Shown: in pieces, positions 3,744 to 23,349 of the stretch
Numbering within the stretch: position 1 is the first letter of the stretch
Layout of the letters: each line of letters opens with the position of its first letter
From: a virus
Virus record (IMG/VR): IMGVR_UViG_3300023176_003651
Coordinates: 1 to 31,336 of that record
Strand: one strand, 5' to 3'
DNA length: 31,336 nt
Translations under genes and position numbers: made by a program
The notes under the pieces: model-generated
Database searches by the model: none
Told to the model about the DNA's origin: nothing
What the model saw: the letters and a program-made list of their open reading frames with translations, nothing else

Positions 3744-4345
3744 TTCACATATGCTCCAATTCGTCCATGTATATCTGGATAATCTCTGTACATGTAACCT
3801 TCGGGAGGATCTATTTCTTGTCCTTCCCAAACTGGAATGAAATGTTCGATACCTCCGTTAAAATCTTCGTTTTTACGCAAATGCACTTCTATTAGATTGC
3901 CGTTTATAAATTCACAATTTATCCATTCGTACTTACTTCCTAGATTAGTTAATACACTAGGAAATGGAATGTGATCATTTACTTTAATCCATTCGTTCCA
4001 TTGGGTGAAAGTATCATTATCTTTTTTACCTTCTACACATAAACGTTGTATACCCCAATTGTAATCTATACTGAGATGTAATCCTTCAAACCATTCGCAC
4101 CAAAAATGACCTACTGGTAAGTGCATAGTCTCTTTGACCAACCATACCTGTTTAGCACCTAGTCCTAAGCCGAGCATATTAACGCATGGGCGGACAATAT
4201 AAAGCCCGGGTTCAGGAACATCTTGTCCTACCGGGCCACATACATATCCTAATTTTCTTGAAAGTATTAATTTATCCATAACCCAGATATCATCTGGGTC
4301 AACTGTTTGCCATACTAAATCTTCTGCTGTGTCATTTATAATCAT
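3740..4345 (-). CDS. hypothetical protein, possibly ATP-grasp-like
   Basis: A 201-residue soluble protein rich in Trp and aromatics. The middle (about 45-75) has a RPCVNMLGLGLGAKQVW stretch, then EWFEGLHLSIDY, and near 143-157 YEWINCEFINGNLIEVHLR. The order of a glycine-containing loop, an acidic strand and an E-x-N/E-x-H strand loosely recalls the C-terminal half of ATP-grasp ligases, but a complete ATP-grasp domain would need more N-terminal sequence. It overlaps the upstream gene by 14 bases and has no clear Shine-Dalgarno site, so it is probably translationally coupled. The ATP-grasp idea is weak. Confidence 0.55.
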   Translation of the reverse strand: MIINDTAEDLVWQTVDPDDIWVMDKLILSRKLGYVCGPVGQDVPEPGLYIVRPCVNMLGLGLGAKQVWLVKETMHLPVGHFWCEWFEGLHLSIDYNWGIQRLCVEGKKDNDTFTQWNEWIKVNDHIPFPSVLTNLGSKYEWINCEFINGNLIEVHLRKNEDFNGGIEHFIPVWEGQEIDPPEGYMYRDYPDIHGRIGAYVK

Positions 4346-5048
4346 TCAGCGCTTTTAATAATTGTTCTTTGATAGATTCCTGTTTTGCACGTTTTGTTGC
4401 AACAGCGTACATCACACTTTCAGCATCATCACCATAACGTTTTTCGAAATCACTTTTGTGTTTTTTAAGTTTTTTTACATTAGCTTCACGGCTGCGTTTT
4501 TCTCCGCCAGTAAGTTCTCTTTCTCCTATAGGAGCATCTAAAGTAGGCCAGCCTCCAGAGGGCCTTTCCTGTCGAACTAAAAGTTTCATAAGTAGGTCTT
4601 GTACCATTCTGGTCCACACCTCTAAAATCCCGTCATGCAACCCTAACTCTGCTCCACACCTCTGAATTTTATCTCTAGCTTCGCCTACTGTGCTTGAAGA
4701 ATCAAAGTGATCTTCACCTACTAGTTTATCTTTTAAAGGATGTGGTTGTTCGCCTGTGGTACTCGGCTTGCTTGTGCTGGGCATAGGATCAGAACCTTTT
4801 GCTTGTCCTGCACTACCAGTATGTTGTTTTTCTGTTACACCTGCAAGTTTTGCAAAATCTGATAAACTATCAATACCTAATGGCATTGATCCTTGTGGTA
4901 CTTCTACACTTTCTTGCACGTAATCTTTAGTAGGAGCAACACTTTCTTGCGTCTTACCGGCCATTGACATAAGAGCTTCTCTGTCTGCTATAGGATCACT
5001 TGGAAACAACCCCTTCATCATTTCGCTCATTTTATAAAAATCTGTCAT
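4332..5048 (-). CDS. hypothetical protein with RYG/ATK C-terminal motif
   Basis: A 238-residue protein. The N-terminal half is low complexity and Ser/Pro/Gly-rich, and includes DSLSDFAKLAGV, a version of the LxxLAG(I/V) element also seen in the 9100-9315 gene. The C-terminal 65 residues carry ELTGGEKRSREANVKKLKK, FEKRYGDDAESVMYAVATK and a basic tail, a module I recall from several T4-like marine phage proteins of unknown role. GAGGG precedes ATG at 5048. It follows the 76-residue gene with no gap. Modular architecture and neighbours suggest a virion-associated or internal head protein; that is inference. Confidence 0.65.
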   Translation of the reverse strand: MTDFYKMSEMMKGLFPSDPIADREALMSMAGKTQESVAPTKDYVQESVEVPQGSMPLGIDSLSDFAKLAGVTEKQHTGSAGQAKGSDPMPSTSKPSTTGEQPHPLKDKLVGEDHFDSSSTVGEARDKIQRCGAELGLHDGILEVWTRMVQDLLMKLLVRQERPSGGWPTLDAPIGERELTGGEKRSREANVKKLKKHKSDFEKRYGDDAESVMYAVATKRAKQESIKEQLLKALNDYK

Positions 5049-5049
5049 A

Positions 5050-5280
5050 TCACCCTCTACTCATTACTAATTTAATTGCGGTGTCTAAATCTTTTTTTGT
5101 AAAATGGCCTCCTAGCTCTTTATTAACATTTCTATATAACCACTGTGTGCCATGTCTTCTAAGATTTTTATCTACCCATGGGACTAATATAGTATCCATA
5201 TCGTCGCCAAATCCATGCCATAAGGTTTTACCTAATTTTGAAAGCCAAGATTCGTCTTCGTATAGTTCTTGTATCTTCAT
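5050..5280 (-). CDS. hypothetical protein with capsid-targeting-like N-terminus
   Basis: A 76-residue basic protein starting MKIQELYEDE. The leader carries an L-x-E site of the type cut by the T4 prohead protease (gp21) and resembles leaders of neighbouring genes. The remainder (WLSKLGKTLWHGFGDDMDT, then Arg/Lys-rich helices) is unrecognised. It overlaps the upstream gene by four bases (ATGA). A small basic packaged protein would parallel the T4 internal proteins, but this is inference from the leader and size. Confidence 0.6.
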   Translation of the reverse strand: MKIQELYEDESWLSKLGKTLWHGFGDDMDTILVPWVDKNLRRHGTQWLYRNVNKELGGHFTKKDLDTAIKLVMSRG

Positions 5281-5789
5281 TTTCCGCTAGGCACACATTT
5301 GTCTTTGCCATTTTCTGTACCAGCAAATTTGTAACCTTTCCAGCAAGCCTTGCCGTCAGATCCTTGTTCTTTACCTGCATTGTTTTTTGCCTCTTCAATT
5401 GCTTCTTGTGGAAGAGTGCGCCAGCTAGGATTTCCACAATCTGGACAAATTGTGCTGTTAGATTTTTCTGCTAATTTTTTTGAAAGTGTTTCTTTATAGT
5501 TTGCAGATTCTGTAGACATTTGCTGCATCATCGATCCGCCATCACCAAATTTCATGTCGTAATCTAGAGAATGAAATACACTAGACATGTAATCTGCTGC
5601 TTTAGTAATTTTTGCTTGTTGCCAGCCTTCAATACCTTCTGCTTCACTAACTGTTTTTAGCATATCATGTAGCTGTATAGCATACTTTGCAATTTTGTAT
5701 AAATCAGAACGTGCCATTTGGACTTCGTGATCCATTTCAGCACGATGTGCCATATCTCCTAGGCCTTCTTGTATTTTTTTCATTCTCAT
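5277..5789 (-). CDS. conserved marine T4-like protein with Cys-rich C-terminus
   Basis: A 170-residue protein. Residues 10-95 form a charged helical region (MAHRAEMDHEVQMARSDLY, YAIQLHDMLK, KITKAADYM) that I recall as a recurring module in T4-like marine phages. The C-terminus has CPDCGNPSW, CWKGYKFAG and KDKCVPSG: four Cys that could bind zinc or form disulfides. The N-terminus MRMKKIQEG contains an I-x-E candidate protease site. ATG at 5789 has AGGAGTG upstream, and a late box lies at 5811-5817. Function is unknown; a virion or internal head role is inferred. Confidence 0.7.
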   Translation of the reverse strand: MRMKKIQEGLGDMAHRAEMDHEVQMARSDLYKIAKYAIQLHDMLKTVSEAEGIEGWQQAKITKAADYMSSVFHSLDYDMKFGDGGSMMQQMSTESANYKETLSKKLAEKSNSTICPDCGNPSWRTLPQEAIEEAKNNAGKEQGSDGKACWKGYKFAGTENGKDKCVPSGK

Positions 5790-5810
5790 TGAAACACTCC
5801 TATTATAGTG

Positions 5811-5817
5811 TATTTAT
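5811..5817 (-). promoter_or_regulatory. T4-like late promoter box ATAAATA
   Basis: Minus-strand GCATAAATACAC, 22 bases before ATG 5789, overlapping the stop of the upstream gene. It leaves room for a short leader with its AGGAG site. One of ten such boxes in this window. Confidence 0.6.
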
Positions 5818-6710
5818 GCTTTTTTTCTTCTTCTTCTGTTTTTCTTAGAGCCTGCTCTAGTAATTGTACCTGGTCCTCCGTTTACAAAACCATTGCCGCC
5901 TCCAGCAAATGCGCCTCCTATGCTGCCAGCACCTGTGGCTCCTGATGTCATTTCTAATATACCTTCTTCGGTAGTGTTTGCACCAAGATCTCTTTGAGCT
6001 TCAGCACCTGTATTATGCTGGGTTGTTATATTATCAACTTGTTGACTTGAAAGTTTTTTTCCAGCAGCACTAGCCATATTACGTGCTTTATCAAGAGCTG
6101 CTGCGGCCTTTATAGTTAAATGACCGGCCTGGCCAACTTCAATACCGTTTTTATCTCTTATAGTAAGATCTTGAGCTACATCTACTCCGGGTTCAATCTC
6201 ACCAGCCTTAACTGCTTGTGCTAGCCATCTTCTTGCAGCCTTTAATTCGTGCCACATCATTTTGTATGTAGCACCACCGCCTAGTTCAAATCCCCAACCT
6301 TTTCTAAAATATTGATTGATTAGGTTTTTGTATTCCTCTTCAGAATTGGACATTTCTTCACCTACATCTTGACGTCCGGCACCTGCATCAACGGCCATCC
6401 TTCTTGAATCTGCCGCAGCCTGTTTCATTGCCGGTAATCCTGCTTCTATGTCTTTAATTGCTTGTACGAACTTTGGTGCTTCAGGATGATTAGGATTGCT
6501 TGCAACTAGAGATTTTAATTGTTTTAAAGTTTTTTGCATGAAGTCGTACAATCCAGAACCTATATCCATTCTTGCTATACTATTATGTACTCGTTCCATA
6601 TCGTTAGCAGCACCGCCTATATCTCCTGCTTTAGCTTTTGCAACCATTCCTTTTGCTGCTTGTGCTATTTCCTGTTCTGTAGTTTCTCTTAATACTTCAA
6701 ATACTTTCAT
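5814..6710 (-). CDS. Ala/Gly-rich protein with capsid-targeting-like N-terminus
   Basis: A 298-residue protein starting MKVFEVLRETT, whose leader has an L-R-E candidate gp21-type cleavage site. Residues 12-110 are Ala-rich helices, the centre has an aromatic patch (YFRKGWGFELGGG), and the C-terminus contains EGILEMTSGATGAG followed by a Gly-rich stretch and a poly-Arg/Lys tail (KKNRRRRKK). The strongly basic end suggests contact with packaged DNA. A GGAAG lies upstream of ATG 6710. No enzyme domain is recognised. The EGILE element could be a second cleavage site. Confidence 0.65.
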   Translation of the reverse strand: MKVFEVLRETTEQEIAQAAKGMVAKAKAGDIGGAANDMERVHNSIARMDIGSGLYDFMQKTLKQLKSLVASNPNHPEAPKFVQAIKDIEAGLPAMKQAAADSRRMAVDAGAGRQDVGEEMSNSEEEYKNLINQYFRKGWGFELGGGATYKMMWHELKAARRWLAQAVKAGEIEPGVDVAQDLTIRDKNGIEVGQAGHLTIKAAAALDKARNMASAAGKKLSSQQVDNITTQHNTGAEAQRDLGANTTEEGILEMTSGATGAGSIGGAFAGGGNGFVNGGPGTITRAGSKKNRRRRKKA

Positions 6711-6831
6711 TATACTGCTTCCAATATGTGTTTCGTTCGTTGGTACTTGCCTTACGTTCTTCGTGTTCTTTGTATTTATCGACGTAGTGCTTTAACTCTT
6801 CTTCCGTCCACTCTTCATGTTTGCGCACCAA
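6697..6831 (-). CDS. candidate 44-residue overlapping gene
   Basis: A short reading frame that bridges the only 81-base gap in this block, overlapping the 3' end of the upstream gene and the 5' end of the downstream one by 14 bases. It would start with TTG at 6831, with AGGA 7 bases upstream, or GTG at 6828. The product is very charged and helical (EEWTEEELKHYVDKYKEHEER), unlike random out-of-frame sequence. The late box at 6773-6779 lies inside it. It is too short to be sure of. Confidence 0.35.
   Translation of the reverse strand: MVRKHEEWTEEELKHYVDKYKEHEERKASTNERNTYWKQYNESI
6773..6779 (-). promoter_or_regulatory. T4-like late promoter box CGATAAATA
   Basis: Minus-strand GTCGATAAATACAAAG, about 60 bases before ATG 6710. 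Its extended CG-ATAAATA form matches the boxes at 19928, 27492 and 30289. It lies within the candidate mini-gene, so chance occurrence is possible. Confidence 0.5.
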
Positions 6832-8816
6832 TGATACATCCTCGCTCTCTCGCCACTGCTATTTTTAGCTTTTTTACGTAGTGCAGTTACACTACCATTG
6901 CAACTAGCACCTGCACGTTTTACACGCCCTGGTCTGCTTTTACCCTTTTTTTTACCGTCAGCAAAGTTTTCTTTTACACTTTCTGGAACATCATCACGCC
7001 AAGTTAAATCCTTAGGATCAGCAATAACTGCACGTATCTTATCTGCACCTGCTTTTAAATGTGCAAAGTATCTATGATGCCCGTCAACAATAAGCCATTT
7101 ATCTTCATGCTGCACAATTACAATAGGTTTTATTTTTTTACCTGCCTCTATCGCTTTTACTAGGTTATCCATGTTAGTTTTGCTTACAGGATCATCCATT
7201 TTATCAGCAGGTTCAAAAGGTGTAAGTTTAGATACGTCTACTCTTTTTACTGGTTGTTTTTCATAATATTCGTCGTCAACGTCTGAGCCTTGATATTCAG
7301 GATTAGTCCACATAGTAATTTCTGCGCCTTCGTTTTTCTTACGTCCTGCACAATGAGCCTTTTGACTGAAGCCTTTTGGATTCGAACAGTTGATTGAACG
7401 CTTATACTTTGCACTCCATTTTTCTGTAAGTTTTAAAAAGTCTTCTATTGGCAAATCTCTGCCTGTTTTATTTCTAAAGTTATGCCTTACGTATTGCATA
7501 ATTTTATTAAATTCTTCTCTACTTAATTTTCCTGCTCTAAAATCTCTTGAAGTTGTACGAATCATTGCCTTTGCATTATCTAATGCTCTGGGTAAATTCA
7601 TTTGTTGAGCTCGTGCTATTTCGTCTGGAGTCCTTGTTCTTTTAGATGCTGCTATTAAATCATCTATAGGACCGCCGTGGTCGTTAGCAGGTCTTTGGGT
7701 ATTTGCTCTTTGTTTTTTTAATTTGTCTAACGCTTGTCTAACTGCCTTTAGACCGTATCTTTTAACAAGTTCTCTAACTGTTGTACCAGCTGCATACAGT
7801 GCAGCAATTACAGCAGGATGTTCTACAATAATAGACTCGCTAACAGGCTCTTGCATATGTTGTTTTAAATTTTGTGCGGTTCTTTCGAATTTATGATCTT
7901 TGTGTTTGAAACCTACTCCGCCTGCTGCTTCCCATTTTTGTATATTTACGCCATAATCGTCTATTAGTATATTAGGTGTTCCATCTTGTTGTGTAGCAAA
8001 TGTTTCTTTGTCATGTCTAATAAGCACTTCTTCTGGAGGGAAGAATTGTAAGTGTTTTTCTATCCATTCGCGTTTGTGAGGCTCTGAATTAGGATCCCCC
8101 GGTAATGGACTACTTAATATTGTGTAAGATCCTTTCACGTCTTTGATCAAATTTAAAAGATTTTTTGCATTTGAAGTTAACGGTAAATCTAACCAAAAAT
8201 TTTCAGTTTGTTTGATTTTTTCAAGTGCAGCCGGGATATTTTCTTGTCCTATGTCTCTCCAGTCGTCTTTGCCCATTAATTTACCCCATTCGGTAAAAAA
8301 GTCTGCTAACACTCCATCCATATCTACATAAATCTTTGTAGAATTTGCAACTTCTTGAGCTTCAGTTGATAATATATCTTGTGCAGTTTTCTTTGCACGA
8401 GCACCGTCTGGGTGGTTAGGATTTATACTCACAACTTCGCCATTCATTAATTCTGAAAAGTTTGCTGCTTTTCCTAGCCTATCCAACACTTGATGTAATT
8501 TGTCTTGGGCATCGTAGCCTCCACTTTCATATCCAGGTTTACCTCTAAGCTCAACTCTATTTTTATTTTTAGGTTTTATGTGTAATGTATCAAAATCTTC
8601 GCCACGCTGAAATTGTAATTTAATACCTTCTGTCAATCCTAAATTAAAAAGTACGTTTGTTGACTTACCTTTTACTTTAGAACTTAATGTAGGAGGACGG
8701 CCGTCTTTATCTACAGTATTACCAAACTTTTTTGCTTGTCGTGGGATTTCGTTAACACCAACGTCTGTTGTTGTGTTTACGCCTTTAACAATTCTACCCC
8801 ACTCTAAAAATCTCAT
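6792..8816 (-). CDS. HAD phosphatase - ParB/Srx-like fusion with Cys-rich segments
   Basis: A 674-residue multidomain protein. Residues 160-325 form a HAD hydrolase: DMDGVLADF (D165, D167), ILSS as motif II, and ILIDDYG (D286, D287) as motif IV, similar to 5'(3')-deoxyribonucleotidases. Residues 335-470 are helical and basic. Residues 476-494 hold CSNPKGFSQKAHCAGRKK. Residues 527-600 look like a ParB/sulfiredoxin-type nuclease fold (KPIVIVQ, then VDGHHRYFAH). The last 45 residues hold SCNGSVTALRKK and YHWCANMK. It starts MRFLEW, overlapping the upstream stop by four bases. I know of no characterised protein with this order; the setting suggests a packaged protein. Confidence 0.75.
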   Translation of the reverse strand: MRFLEWGRIVKGVNTTTDVGVNEIPRQAKKFGNTVDKDGRPPTLSSKVKGKSTNVLFNLGLTEGIKLQFQRGEDFDTLHIKPKNKNRVELRGKPGYESGGYDAQDKLHQVLDRLGKAANFSELMNGEVVSINPNHPDGARAKKTAQDILSTEAQEVANSTKIYVDMDGVLADFFTEWGKLMGKDDWRDIGQENIPAALEKIKQTENFWLDLPLTSNAKNLLNLIKDVKGSYTILSSPLPGDPNSEPHKREWIEKHLQFFPPEEVLIRHDKETFATQQDGTPNILIDDYGVNIQKWEAAGGVGFKHKDHKFERTAQNLKQHMQEPVSESIIVEHPAVIAALYAAGTTVRELVKRYGLKAVRQALDKLKKQRANTQRPANDHGGPIDDLIAASKRTRTPDEIARAQQMNLPRALDNAKAMIRTTSRDFRAGKLSREEFNKIMQYVRHNFRNKTGRDLPIEDFLKLTEKWSAKYKRSINCSNPKGFSQKAHCAGRKKNEGAEITMWTNPEYQGSDVDDEYYEKQPVKRVDVSKLTPFEPADKMDDPVSKTNMDNLVKAIEAGKKIKPIVIVQHEDKWLIVDGHHRYFAHLKAGADKIRAVIADPKDLTWRDDVPESVKENFADGKKKGKSRPGRVKRAGASCNGSVTALRKKAKNSSGERARMYHWCANMKSGRKKS

Positions 8817-9103
8817 TTTTTTCTAAACTTATCTCTTAATCTCGGATTTTGATTTTGCATACTTTTTTGTATGTCTTTTTGTACTTGATTTGGATCTATA
8901 CCTGCGGCTCTGCTTAAACTGTCAGCATCAGCTTGTGTTTTGTTAATTTTGTCTTGCATGCCTTGGCCTACAACATTCATACGATCGACCATACCTGCAT
9001 CTGATGTTTTACTTTTTAGCAATGCGGCTTGTTGTTGTTTTCTTAAGGCTGCTTGTCTGCCAGTCAATGTAGGTGCATCTTCTAGTATTTCAAATATTTT
9101 CAT
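8813..9103 (-). CDS. small protein with capsid-targeting-like N-terminus
   Basis: A 96-residue protein starting MKIFEILEDAPTLTG, very like the leader at 6710, with an I-L-E candidate gp21-type cleavage site. After the leader the protein is Gln/Lys/Ala-rich, probably helical, and ends in a basic tail (RLRDKFRKK). Size, charge and leader resemble T4 internal head proteins. It shares ATGA overlaps with both neighbours. No other domain is recognised. Confidence 0.65.
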   Translation of the reverse strand: MKIFEILEDAPTLTGRQAALRKQQQAALLKSKTSDAGMVDRMNVVGQGMQDKINKTQADADSLSRAAGIDPNQVQKDIQKSMQNQNPRLRDKFRKK

Positions 9104-9315
9104 TTCTTACGTCCTCTAAATTGTACAGGACCAGTCATGTAAGGTTTTGAAAACCATAAACGGAACCAGTCAGGATCTCCTGGACGTATATTCATTTCAC
9201 GTTCTTGTTTGCGACGAGCTGCTGCGGTTTCGCTGGGATTTTCGTCTAGCACATATTCTGTGTAGCCTTTGAATTCGTTAATACCTGCAAGTTTACGTAG
9301 CTCATCTAGATCCAT
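9100..9315 (-). CDS. small hypothetical protein with LxKLAGI leader
   Basis: A 71-residue protein starting MDLDELRKLAGINEF. The DELRKLAGI element recalls the LxxLAG motif of the 4332-5048 gene and may be a variant packaging or docking leader. The rest is charged and ends PVQFRGRKK after a Trp/Phe-rich stretch (DPDWFRLWFSKPY). It overlaps the upstream nucleotidyltransferase gene by 14 bases and the downstream gene by four, so it is part of one translated chain. Function unknown. Confidence 0.6.
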   Translation of the reverse strand: MDLDELRKLAGINEFKGYTEYVLDENPSETAAARRKQEREMNIRPGDPDWFRLWFSKPYMTGPVQFRGRKK

Positions 9316-10051
9316 ATTTCTTCACTTTCTTTTCGTCTGAACTATGGCCAAATGTTTTATGTACAAGTTTGTCTAGTTTGCGGTGAAATTCATCTTCTTC
9401 TTCATCACTTGCATCTTCGCCTACAGGTGCTTCTGGATCGCCCAGTGCCTTGTTAAGCAGTTGCGTGGCTGTTTGTGCATTCCCTGGATACATTAGTTCG
9501 GCGGCCTGTAATTTGTCTTCGTCTGACATTTCTGGCCATGCTGCTCGTAGCTCACTAGCACTTTTAATACTCATACCACTAAAGTCAAAATCAATAGTAG
9601 GTCCATATGCTAGATACCCATGTGTATCTGCTGTTTCTAAATCTCCATCTTTATAAGAAATTAAATATCCCATATTACCGTCACTTTTACGAACTTGATC
9701 TGGTAAAGGGTGGCTTGTTTTATCTTTTTCACTGCGTACAAATACAAGTGCTGTCTTTGATGCGTCACCTATAATATCGTTATATGATAAAGCATTAAAA
9801 GGTGATTTGACTTGTATAAATCTATTAGCAGGTACTCCTGCCATTTGTGCAAGTTTTATCTTTACATCAAAGGGAAAAGGTCTTGTAGTAGTATCGTTAG
9901 TAGCTGCAACATACACATTCTCTCTACCAAATGTTTCTACAGCCCAATCATACAAACTTTTGTGTCCTGGATGAAATGGATGAAATCCTCCCGGCATAAC
10001 TGCTACTACTTTCTGTGCAGGCGCCTCCTCAAATAGTTCGCGGAGTCTCAT
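9302..10051 (-). CDS. HxGH-type nucleotidyltransferase with capsid-targeting-like N-terminus
   Basis: A 249-residue protein. After a leader MRLRELFEEAP comes VAVMPGGFHPFHPGHKSLY, the HxGH signature (H27-H30) of the cytidylyl/adenylyl-transferase fold, with SIKSASELR (162-169) standing for the distal (S/T)xxxxR motif. Such enzymes join a nucleotide to a phosphorylated or carboxylated partner (NMN, pantetheine-P, glycerol-P). The substrate cannot be read here. The last 50 residues are acidic then basic and look disordered. Start ATG 10051 overlaps the upstream stop (ATGA). The leader has an L-F-E candidate cleavage site, and T4 Alt, which is injected, begins similarly as I recall it. Confidence 0.8.
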   Translation of the reverse strand: MRLRELFEEAPAQKVVAVMPGGFHPFHPGHKSLYDWAVETFGRENVYVAATNDTTTRPFPFDVKIKLAQMAGVPANRFIQVKSPFNALSYNDIIGDASKTALVFVRSEKDKTSHPLPDQVRKSDGNMGYLISYKDGDLETADTHGYLAYGPTIDFDFSGMSIKSASELRAAWPEMSDEDKLQAAELMYPGNAQTATQLLNKALGDPEAPVGEDASDEEEDEFHRKLDKLVHKTFGHSSDEKKVKKYGSR

Positions 10052-10383
10052 TTGTACTCTCCGTTTTTAATTTGCTCCATTTCCTCTGAGAATAGTTTAT
10101 CTATTAGGGCATCTCTATCAGGTTGTTTAAAAATATCTTCGGACGCTCTTCCTAATTTATATTTTTTACAGTAGCTGTCTATACCCTTTTCAACCATAGG
10201 TAATACTACACTTCTGTCTAAAGACTTTCCTGATGAGTGTAGGTCTGCCATTTTTGCCATTGTAGGATAATATTCTTTCCTGTAAAATTGCGGATCATTT
10301 CTCATATATACTGAAGCATCATCTACAATATCAAAATTTAAATCAGTGTTAACTGGCGTATGAAATTCGGCTATTTTTACCAT
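10048..10383 (-). CDS. conserved hypothetical protein
   Basis: A 111-residue protein beginning MVKIAEFHTPVNTDL. ATG at 10383 is chosen because GGAG lies 9 bases upstream; an in-frame TTG at 10398 sits beside that site. The segment DASVYMRNDPQFYRKEYYP is distinctive, and I recall it in T4-like marine phages without assigned function. It overlaps the upstream gene by seven bases and the nucleotidyltransferase by four. The mixed helical sequence has no catalytic motif that I can name. Confidence 0.7.
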   Translation of the reverse strand: MVKIAEFHTPVNTDLNFDIVDDASVYMRNDPQFYRKEYYPTMAKMADLHSSGKSLDRSVVLPMVEKGIDSYCKKYKLGRASEDIFKQPDRDALIDKLFSEEMEQIKNGEYK

Positions 10384-10934
10384 TTGCGACAACTCCAATA
10401 TCTTGCTTTATGACGTGGCCCTGGATTGTCACAATTGTGTCTTGCACGAAAACTTCTTCGTCTTGCTGGACTAGATTTTTTTATACGCATGTTAGGGTCA
10501 CCAAAGTTTACTTTTACTACGTTACCTTTTGGGTTACGGACATATACTTTAAACTTCTTAACATCGCCTCGCATTGGTTTGCCGAGCTTAACCTTGCGTC
10601 CTTGATACTCTGCTTCATCCAAATCTTCATCTTCGTTATACCACATAACGCCAAATTCTTCGTAAAAATCATCACCGTCATATGTTACTTCTGCAATTTC
10701 TTCACCGCTTTCGCCTATGTAAATATCAAAATCTTCATAACCTTCTGAAAACAAATAGTTTGCAAGTTTATTAGCATATTCATCTGCTTCTGATTCTTCT
10801 AGTTCTCTCGGTAATGGAATTTGCATAACTGTTGTATCTTGCTCAGTTTCAAAGGTTTCATACAAAGGAAAGATACTCTCGTCTAGCTTATTTGTTTCTT
10901 GTTTTTCCATTACTACAGTTACATAGTGTTGCAT
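10377..10934 (-). CDS. acidic protein with RARHxC...YWSC tail module
   Basis: A 185-residue protein. Residues 1-110 are strongly acidic (EESEADEY, YNEDEDLDEAEY). Residues 110-150 form a basic beta-rich segment (GRKVKLGKPMRGDVKKFKVYV). The end reads RRRSFRARHNCDNPG then KARYWSCRKW. This tail, with two Cys, aromatics and many Arg, is a module I recall at the ends of several T4-like marine phage proteins, and it parallels the Cys tails of the 6792-8816 gene. AAGGA precedes ATG 10934, and a late box lies at 10983-10989. Probably virion-associated; function unknown. Confidence 0.7.
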   Translation of the reverse strand: MQHYVTVVMEKQETNKLDESIFPLYETFETEQDTTVMQIPLPRELEESEADEYANKLANYLFSEGYEDFDIYIGESGEEIAEVTYDGDDFYEEFGVMWYNEDEDLDEAEYQGRKVKLGKPMRGDVKKFKVYVRNPKGNVVKVNFGDPNMRIKKSSPARRRSFRARHNCDNPGPRHKARYWSCRKW

Positions 10935-22834: not shown

Positions 22835-23021
22835 AGGGCCACTCCTTCACGCCTTTTAAATTGCTAACACGATTTTGTAAAAAAGAAATAGTTGTATGTA
22901 TATGACCCGTGTCGTGCGGTTGAAGTAAAGTTTTATAGTATTCTATTTCTTCTTCTAAAACTTCCAATCGCACAAGATCATTAATAAGTTTTTTATTAGT
23001 CGCCTTTGCCTGGATTTTCAC
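22827..23021 (-). CDS. small coiled-coil hypothetical protein (GTG start)
   Basis: A 64-residue protein, mostly one charged helix ([23 protein letters not shown]) and a shorter helix ([11 protein letters not shown]), ending KEWPFD. GTG 23021 has GGAG 7 bases upstream. It overlaps the ferredoxin gene by 26 bases and the dihydrofolate reductase gene by eight. No function assigned; a helical hairpin adaptor is plausible from sequence only. Confidence 0.55.
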
Positions 23022-23349
23022 TGAAGTGCTCCTCTAATTTGTTTGGATACATATTCCAGTCGTCTGCATCTGCAGGTACGTCTTCAGGCCGTTTTACAGT
23101 AATGTTAGGCCATAGTAAACTGTACTTCCTATTAAATTCTTCCCACATCACACTTGTTTCTGGTTTTAGACTTTGATCTGCGACGATTGCATCAACAGGA
23201 CATTCAGGCTCGCAAACTCCACAATCAATGCACTCATCAGGATTAATTACAAGCATGTTTTCGCCTTCATAGAAACAGTCTACTGGACATACTTCTACAC
23301 AATCCATGTGCTTACATTTAATACAATTATCATTAACAATATAAGTCAT
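22996..23349 (-). CDS. fdxA: FdxA-type two-cluster bacterial ferredoxin
   Basis: Low-potential electron carrier. The 117-residue protein has [14 protein letters not shown] (C9, C12, C17, C21) and [12 protein letters not shown] (C40, C43, C46, C50) inside the hallmark [14 protein letters not shown]...INPDECIDC sequence of proteobacterial FdxA (7Fe/8Fe type). A C-terminal extension ([16 protein letters not shown]) also matches that family. It shares TAATG with the upstream gp44 gene and lies in the replication operon, not with other redox genes. This differs from the plant-type ferredoxins of cyanophages and points to a proteobacterial origin. Confidence 0.93.

Follow-up and report, generated by a model that had tools for sequence, protein, structure and literature searches.

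The T4 internal proteins IPI, IPII and IPIII, together with Alt, carry a capsid targeting sequence that is processed by the prohead protease gp21. Within it, residues 4 and 7 matter for targeting and residues 8 and 10 for processing, which is blocked by Asp at the P1 position (PMC9026906). Head proteins of the giant phages phiKZ and SPN3US have propeptides with several sites that are cut after Glu by a prohead protease, mainly within segments that are discarded. Polyvalent proteins of phages and conjugative elements combine several unlike domains, including ParB-like ones, in each injected chain, and their processing into units by a built-in peptidase domain has been proposed (PMC5512222). Virion proteins reported for the cyanophages S-CREM2, S-SCSM1, S-CBWM1 and S-SZBM1 include NMNAT-like proteins (described in virions of four cyanophages), kinases and a SAM hydrolase, in reports that state their presence and name no targeting leader (PMC9602691, PMC10665884).

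The window analysed here is the whole of a 31,336-base IMG/VR fragment, which by gene content belongs to a T4-like marine myovirus. One block of its genes, on the minus strand, had been predicted to share N-termini resembling capsid-targeting sequences. All seven of the listed starts are present as described: MKIQELYED (5280), MRMKKIQEG (5789), MKVFEVLRE (6710), MRFLEW (8816), MKIFEILED (9103), MDLDELRKL (9315) and MRLRELFEE (10051). The claim that most of them place (L/I)-x-E within the first 10 residues holds in the strict sense for five (LYE, IQE, LRE, ILE and LFE). The remaining two are atypical: the site in MRFLE/W is F-L-E, and that in MDLDELRKLAGINE/F (INE) does not come until residues 12-14 (a slash marks the putative cut throughout). 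The genes form an overlapping chain, as claimed, in so far as most overlap by 4-14 bp, with gaps at 5790-5813 and 6711-6791 that interrupt it. The bodies behind the leaders are indeed unrelated, and at least 20 unrelated bodies with leaders occur in 41 relatives. The near-identical relative L001 has the block as well.

The block would work like the T4 capsid-targeting system, of which it is a candidate member on a fragment that does not include the protease. The two are alike in a short leader beginning with Met and a basic residue, an (L/I)xE end at residue 8-10, unrelated cargo and Glu as the sole P1 residue. They differ in that the block leader is two residues shorter and has [D/E] at residue 5, and in that the block has many more putative cargo genes, several of them with enzyme domains, and sites between fused domains. 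Its bodies are without homology to the IPI-III and Alt families, none of which was found for any block gene in Pfam and PHROG scans. An NMNAT-like nucleotidyltransferase is common to the block and the cyanophage virions, and leader-bearing cargo has been detected by mass spectrometry in S-CREM2; the cyanophage sequences are distant from those of the block. The protein encoded at 6792-8816 shows the trait of polyvalent proteins, with NT5C, ParB_N-like and other unlike domains in one chain; however, no peptidase domain was found in the block with Pfam and PHROG, and its sites are of the prohead protease type. Sites cut after Glu are also the likeness to the giant-phage head proteins, but those of the block would lie between cargo domains that are retained.

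The explanation proposed here, which as a whole is given a probability of about 0.8, is that the block encodes phage-head cargo. A leader of 8-10 residues, M-[K/R]-hydrophobic-x-[D/E]-[L/I]-x-E/, would draw each cargo protein into the prohead core, where gp21 would cut after the Glu and take the leader off. In-frame fusions such as 6792-8816 would be cut by gp21 at hydrophobic-x-E/ junctions inside the prohead, and the mature pieces would stay with the DNA until both enter the next host. These pieces would comprise an NMNAT-like nucleotidyltransferase, an NT5C-type nucleotidase, a ParB-like domain and small basic or Cys-rich modules. Judged from sequence comparison, a head-targeting role of the leader is very likely, and cutting between the modules is fairly probable. 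The original prediction had likewise read the block as a set of head-packaged proteins, and comparative evidence (leaders, Glu at P1, leader swapping, gp21 and gp23 in relatives, S-CREM2 virions) supports this, with the qualifications that two of the seven leaders are atypical, that gp21 is absent from the fragment, and that packaging, cleavage and injection in the window virus are deduced, with T4 as the precedent for delivery. That account covered the leaders and overlooked the internal sites of the fusion protein.

Table 1. Features of the putative cargo block in the window, with candidate cleavage sites.
Feature	Coordinates	Strand	Basis or remark
NMNAT/NadD-like nucleotidyltransferase, 249 aa, leader MRLRELFE/EAP	9302..10051	-	Pfam CTP_transf_like; 40 loci
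Leader of the nucleotidyltransferase gene, residues 1-8	10028..10051	-	Conservation across relatives
71 aa protein, MDLDELRKLAGINE/FKGY, different leader type	9100..9315	-	37 loci
96 aa basic protein, pI about 10, leader MKIFEILE/DAP (9080-9103)	8813..9103	-	
674 aa putative multidomain cargo fusion, leader MRFLE/W	6792..8816	-	Pfam, predicted structure
Candidate cut site GLTE/G, residue 63	8628..8636	-	Domain edge in predicted structure
Candidate cut site LSTE/A, residue 152, upstream of nucleotidase	8361..8369	-	Weak: P3 is Ser
NT5C nucleotidase domain, residues 162-299	7920..8333	-	Pfam NT5C 5e-7; PHROG match
Candidate cut site IIVE/HPAV, residue 332	7821..7829	-	Low-confidence linker 322-332
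Candidate cut site KLTE/KWS, residue 465	7422..7430	-	Homologous body separate in L023
ParB_N-like domain, residues 544-604	7005..7187	-	Pfam ParB_N 3.3e-5; PHROG ParB-like 4.9e-10
Candidate cut site SVKE/NFADG, residue 616	6969..6977	-	NFADG junction set
298 aa basic protein, pI 9.3, leader MKVFEVLRE/TTE (6684-6710)	5814..6710	-	
170 aa protein, leader MRMKKIQE/GLGDMAH (5766-5789), C-terminal Cys module	5277..5789	-	35 loci
76 aa protein, leader MKIQELYE/DES (5257-5280)	5050..5280	-	
238 aa gene without leader, adjoins block	4332..5048	-	
PIGE/RELTGGEK before C-terminal module of 238 aa protein	4521-4529	-	Matches L024 gene

The leader pattern was compared between gene starts and internal positions, and across relatives, which are 41 related viral loci fetched with the nucleotidyltransferase gene as probe. 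The strict motif occurs at 3/43 ATG starts of the window versus 0/150 internal ATGs (p=0.010), a test with some circularity, as the motif was taken from the earlier reader's list. The corresponding tests in the relatives G005 (4/237 vs 2/1173, p=0.009) and G002 (5/332 vs 1/1319, p=0.0016) are independent of that list. In all three, matches at starts concentrate in the cargo block, and a profile trained on two families only gave a similar start enrichment. With the trained profile, leaders were not enriched genome-wide in the cultured Sinorhizobium phage Phosso, the capsid protein of which is 71-74% identical to that of G005. A set of 79 distinct N-termini was selected by residues 1-6 only; it has 53 Glu and no Asp at residue 8, against a mixture of 47 Glu and 21 Asp at residue 5. 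Since an amphipathic or acidic peptide free of cleavage constraint would be expected to tolerate Asp, the Glu-only residue 8 fits a protease site, and Glu at P1 is also what the T4 prohead protease has been reported to require (PMC9026906).

The alignment of N-termini across related phages, which had been suggested as a check, shows that leaders recur in the 41 relatives and that the nucleotidyltransferase leader is kept at the protein level. Its pN/pS is 0.29 over codons 2-8 and 0.21 over codons 4-8, with a pS of 0.75; M1, R4 and E8 are invariant in A2, [LI]xE is kept in 27/27 distinct upstream segments of the family, and the predicted structure places the leader in a short separate helix. 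In the 71 aa family, [IV]NE/F is retained by most relatives and lost in L008 and L013. The 170 aa family has Glu before GLGDLA in all N-terminal and fused copies; a tblastn search with 5277-5789 gave no match in cultured phages. The 96 aa and 76 aa proteins are restricted to the window and L001, and residues 121-213 in the middle of the 298 aa protein are common to L002:13752. The C-terminal module of the leaderless 238 aa protein matches a stand-alone gene of L024 that begins MRIHEFTE/RKMTGAEK. The nearby minus-strand gene 10048-10383 and its family have conserved starts, MVKI.EF or MRIDEF...Q, that resemble the targeting half without xE; this family is possibly an uncleaved leader variant.

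Virion data come from a cultured relative, the cyanophage S-CREM2, for which a mass-spectrometric proteome with coordinates has been published; its authors note that co-purification is possible for virion proteins (PMC10665884). A T4-like leader is found in 5/28 of its non-structural or unknown virion proteins, 0/24 structural and 0/167 non-virion proteins (p=2.5e-5), a count based on annotated starts and on a pattern (MKxFxxFLTE-like) that was modelled on the T4 leader after these N-termini had been viewed. The bearers are a SAM hydrolase (MKDFDSFLEE), ORF13 (MKDLHSFLTE), a kinase (MKRFDAFLTE), ORF136 (MQTFSMFFSE) and a cytidylyltransferase (MKNFSSFLTE). The exact window-type pattern has 0 matches in S-CREM2, where the leaders are of the longer T4-like form. 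Cultured marine relatives show a continuous series of leaders: in Methylophilales phage Melnitz, a nucleotidyltransferase has MKKFSEIIE/A and a nucleotidase MKSIVEVTSINE/E; S-SM2 has MKTLKQFLKE/T, S-SRM01 has MKSFKQFISE/S and Pelagibacter phage HTVC008M has MIPFILKE/G. No description of leaders of this kind in marine phages was found in an open-access literature search.

The search for a gp21 homologue called for by the original prediction found neither gp21 nor gp23 on the window, which is a fragment, and succeeded in the relatives G005 and G007, which carry the block together with both genes. Neither was found in 9/11 relative records, among them G002 (275 kb, L048-L061, block present), where both the family and the protein search gave no gp21 or gp23. 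The relatives' gp21 (in G005 at L046:10186-10809) keeps a T4-like core and can be aligned over 140 residues with 5jbl, a structure of the T4 protease. In G005, the alignment of gp23 with mature T4 gp23 runs from residue 43 on, with KYLSE41/S42 just upstream. This capsid protein would thus be cut after LSE41, where T4 gp23 is cut, at a predicted site of the same type as in the leaders. Members of the 71 aa family have the motif LAG[IL]N at their start, and the G005 scaffold protein gp22 ends in it (...DMKRLAGLN; L046:10822-11910), hinting at a shared core-binding motif.

New in this analysis, the same h-x-E/ site is present at internal domain junctions of multidomain cargo. Module starts were located by comparing the fusion proteins of the block with one another. 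Near 272 internal module starts, [LI]xE was observed 83 times, versus 36.0 +/- 5.1 at random positions (reached in 0/300 trials), and the control motifs did not rise ([LI]xD 52 vs 53; [KR]xE 39 vs 35). The signal peaks sharply at the module boundary. In ten recurring modules, Glu is at P1 in 65/65 distinct internal junctions, with a hydrophobic residue at P3 in 85% (background 30%), at P2 in 20% and at P4 in 9%; these modules were chosen after the pattern had been seen, and the random-position and peak tests are less biased. Examples are SLIE/ALGEIA, HFLE/ALGEIA, SILE/WGRIV, KIIE/GYKLQLERD, SVKE/NFADG and ELGE/AKDTHCSDKCCG. Of 24 distinct NFADG junctions, 16 have [LIVF]xE (p=5e-14); tblastn with this module gave no match in cultured phages. 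Some module boundaries are without a site, and with boundaries collapsed to 20 families the p-value is only 0.035, a test that is weak because the BLAST families chained.

Within the 674 aa protein, the predicted structure consists of separate domains joined by low-confidence linkers. The candidate sites at residues 5, 63, 332, 465 and 616 fall in such linkers or at domain edges, and its other [LIVF]xE occurrences (23, 122, 176, 349) lie in or at helices. The edge at residue 63 recurs as GLAE/GYKLQLERD in L005 and GLTE/GYKLQLERD in L007. Residue 152 aligns with the leader junction MRVHEIFE/NLGEIA of the stand-alone nucleotidase of L002, and the body after residue 465 is a separate gene in L023 with the leader MRWLEVTE/KWS. 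The retention of h-x-E/ sites at domain junctions suggests that cargo polyproteins are cut apart in the prohead.

Three other explanations were weighed. The shared N-termini could reflect a translation-start preference (Lys or Arg at codon 2, A-rich starts, overlapping ATGA junctions) or chance, given that MK and MR starts are common among phage proteins and that the window alone reaches only p=0.01. A signal in the DNA at gene starts is ruled out by synonymous sites that vary while the peptide stays, and start preference would explain neither the constancy of residue 8 (Glu) and residue 6 ([LI]) nor the same pattern at internal junctions distant from any start. Chance and start-codon bias fail on three counts, namely the internal-ATG control, the contrast between Glu and Asp, and the codon variation, so this explanation is very improbable. 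Somewhat less remote, and still improbable, is a leader without a head-targeting role that binds a different partner (a chaperone, the tail or a membrane) or marks the protein for degradation. The window virus is known by sequence alone, and the short helix predicted for the nucleotidyltransferase leader is a form frequent in binding peptides; against this, Glu as the only P1 residue with a hydrophobic P3 is the prohead protease consensus, a like site is present in the gp23 of G005, and the leader proteins of S-CREM2 are located in virions.

More weight, although it is unlikely, is given to the possibility that leaders are cleaved as in T4 while the internal h-x-E sites are decaying, uncut leader remnants, so that the fusions are packaged whole. 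A recognisable leader does stand at two junctions, L039 MKQNELSE/K and L015 MKDVNE/G (in a third, L031, the start may have been misassigned), and the weakness of the family-collapsed test also leaves room for it. Yet M[KR] occurs at leader distance in at most 3 of the 65 junctions, and P4 to P8 are not leader-like while P3 and P1 are fixed. Remnants are also disfavoured by the absence of [LI]xD enrichment at module boundaries and by the 674 aa protein, where linkers or domain edges hold most of the junction sites and helix-located sites are elsewhere.

The leader behaves as a movable module. The GRIVKGVNTT body is preceded by different leaders depending on the phage (MRFLEW, MKVYELYEGV, MKIYDLDEAV, MKLFEFLKED, MKISDLTED, MKLRELFEY and others), and Phosso encodes a 64-residue protein, MRYAEILKLLE/DGKVVKGVNTT. 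In L002 the NT5C nucleotidase has its own gene, with the leader MRVHEIFE; in the window and most relatives it is a domain within a longer protein. G002 also has a second cluster of leader genes (L058:2263-7517), which includes very basic proteins with KYRC(N/S)SG(P/I)RK motifs.

The expectation that some of the cargo would be enzymatic agrees with Pfam, PHROG and fold matches, which point to a nucleotidyltransferase and an NT5C nucleotidase. The former has an HxGH motif, its best fold-search matches are NadD/NaMN adenylyltransferases (from a predicted structure of moderate confidence, pLDDT 72), and its HPGH and SASxLR motifs are invariant in A2. The modules of the 674 aa fusion are, in order, GRIVKG, NT5C nucleotidase, basic helical, Cys, ParB_N-like and a basic C-terminal Cys module; its ParB_N Pfam score is slightly below the curated cut-off. 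The remaining block proteins are small, mostly basic and without assigned function. Cys-rich basic modules recur at the C-termini of the unrelated 10377-10934, 6792-8816 and 5277-5789 proteins (ARHNCDNPGP..YWSCRKW, MYHWCANMKSGRKK, KAHCAGRKK, CWKGYK..CVP), and KAHCAGRKK is also found in cyanophages.

Marine T4-like phages have mostly unannotated genes. With a leader recognisable in the sequence itself, part of these could be assigned to a class that is packaged and delivered at time zero, each with a predicted mature N-terminus. Cutting at the internal sites, if it occurs, would mean that prohead proteases free working cargo domains from polyproteins, a role beyond scaffold clearance, and would explain the heavy shuffling of modules in block genes. 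That marine T4-like phages in general carry head cargo as polyproteins of enzyme and DNA-binding modules with one leader, cut in the prohead and injected as a set with freely shuffled modules, has a little better than an even chance. An NMNAT-like enzyme entering with the DNA would bear on the phage answer to NAD-depleting defences.

Two further genes were noted. The window encodes, at 22996-23349 (minus strand), a 117 aa ferredoxin-looking protein with two CxxCxxCxxxCP-like clusters, encoded between the genes for the clamp loader and dihydrofolate reductase. Although annexins are not expected in phages, an 833 aa block protein of a relative (L003:4533-7031) combines annexin repeats (PF00191, 4e-16) with a peptidoglycan-binding domain.
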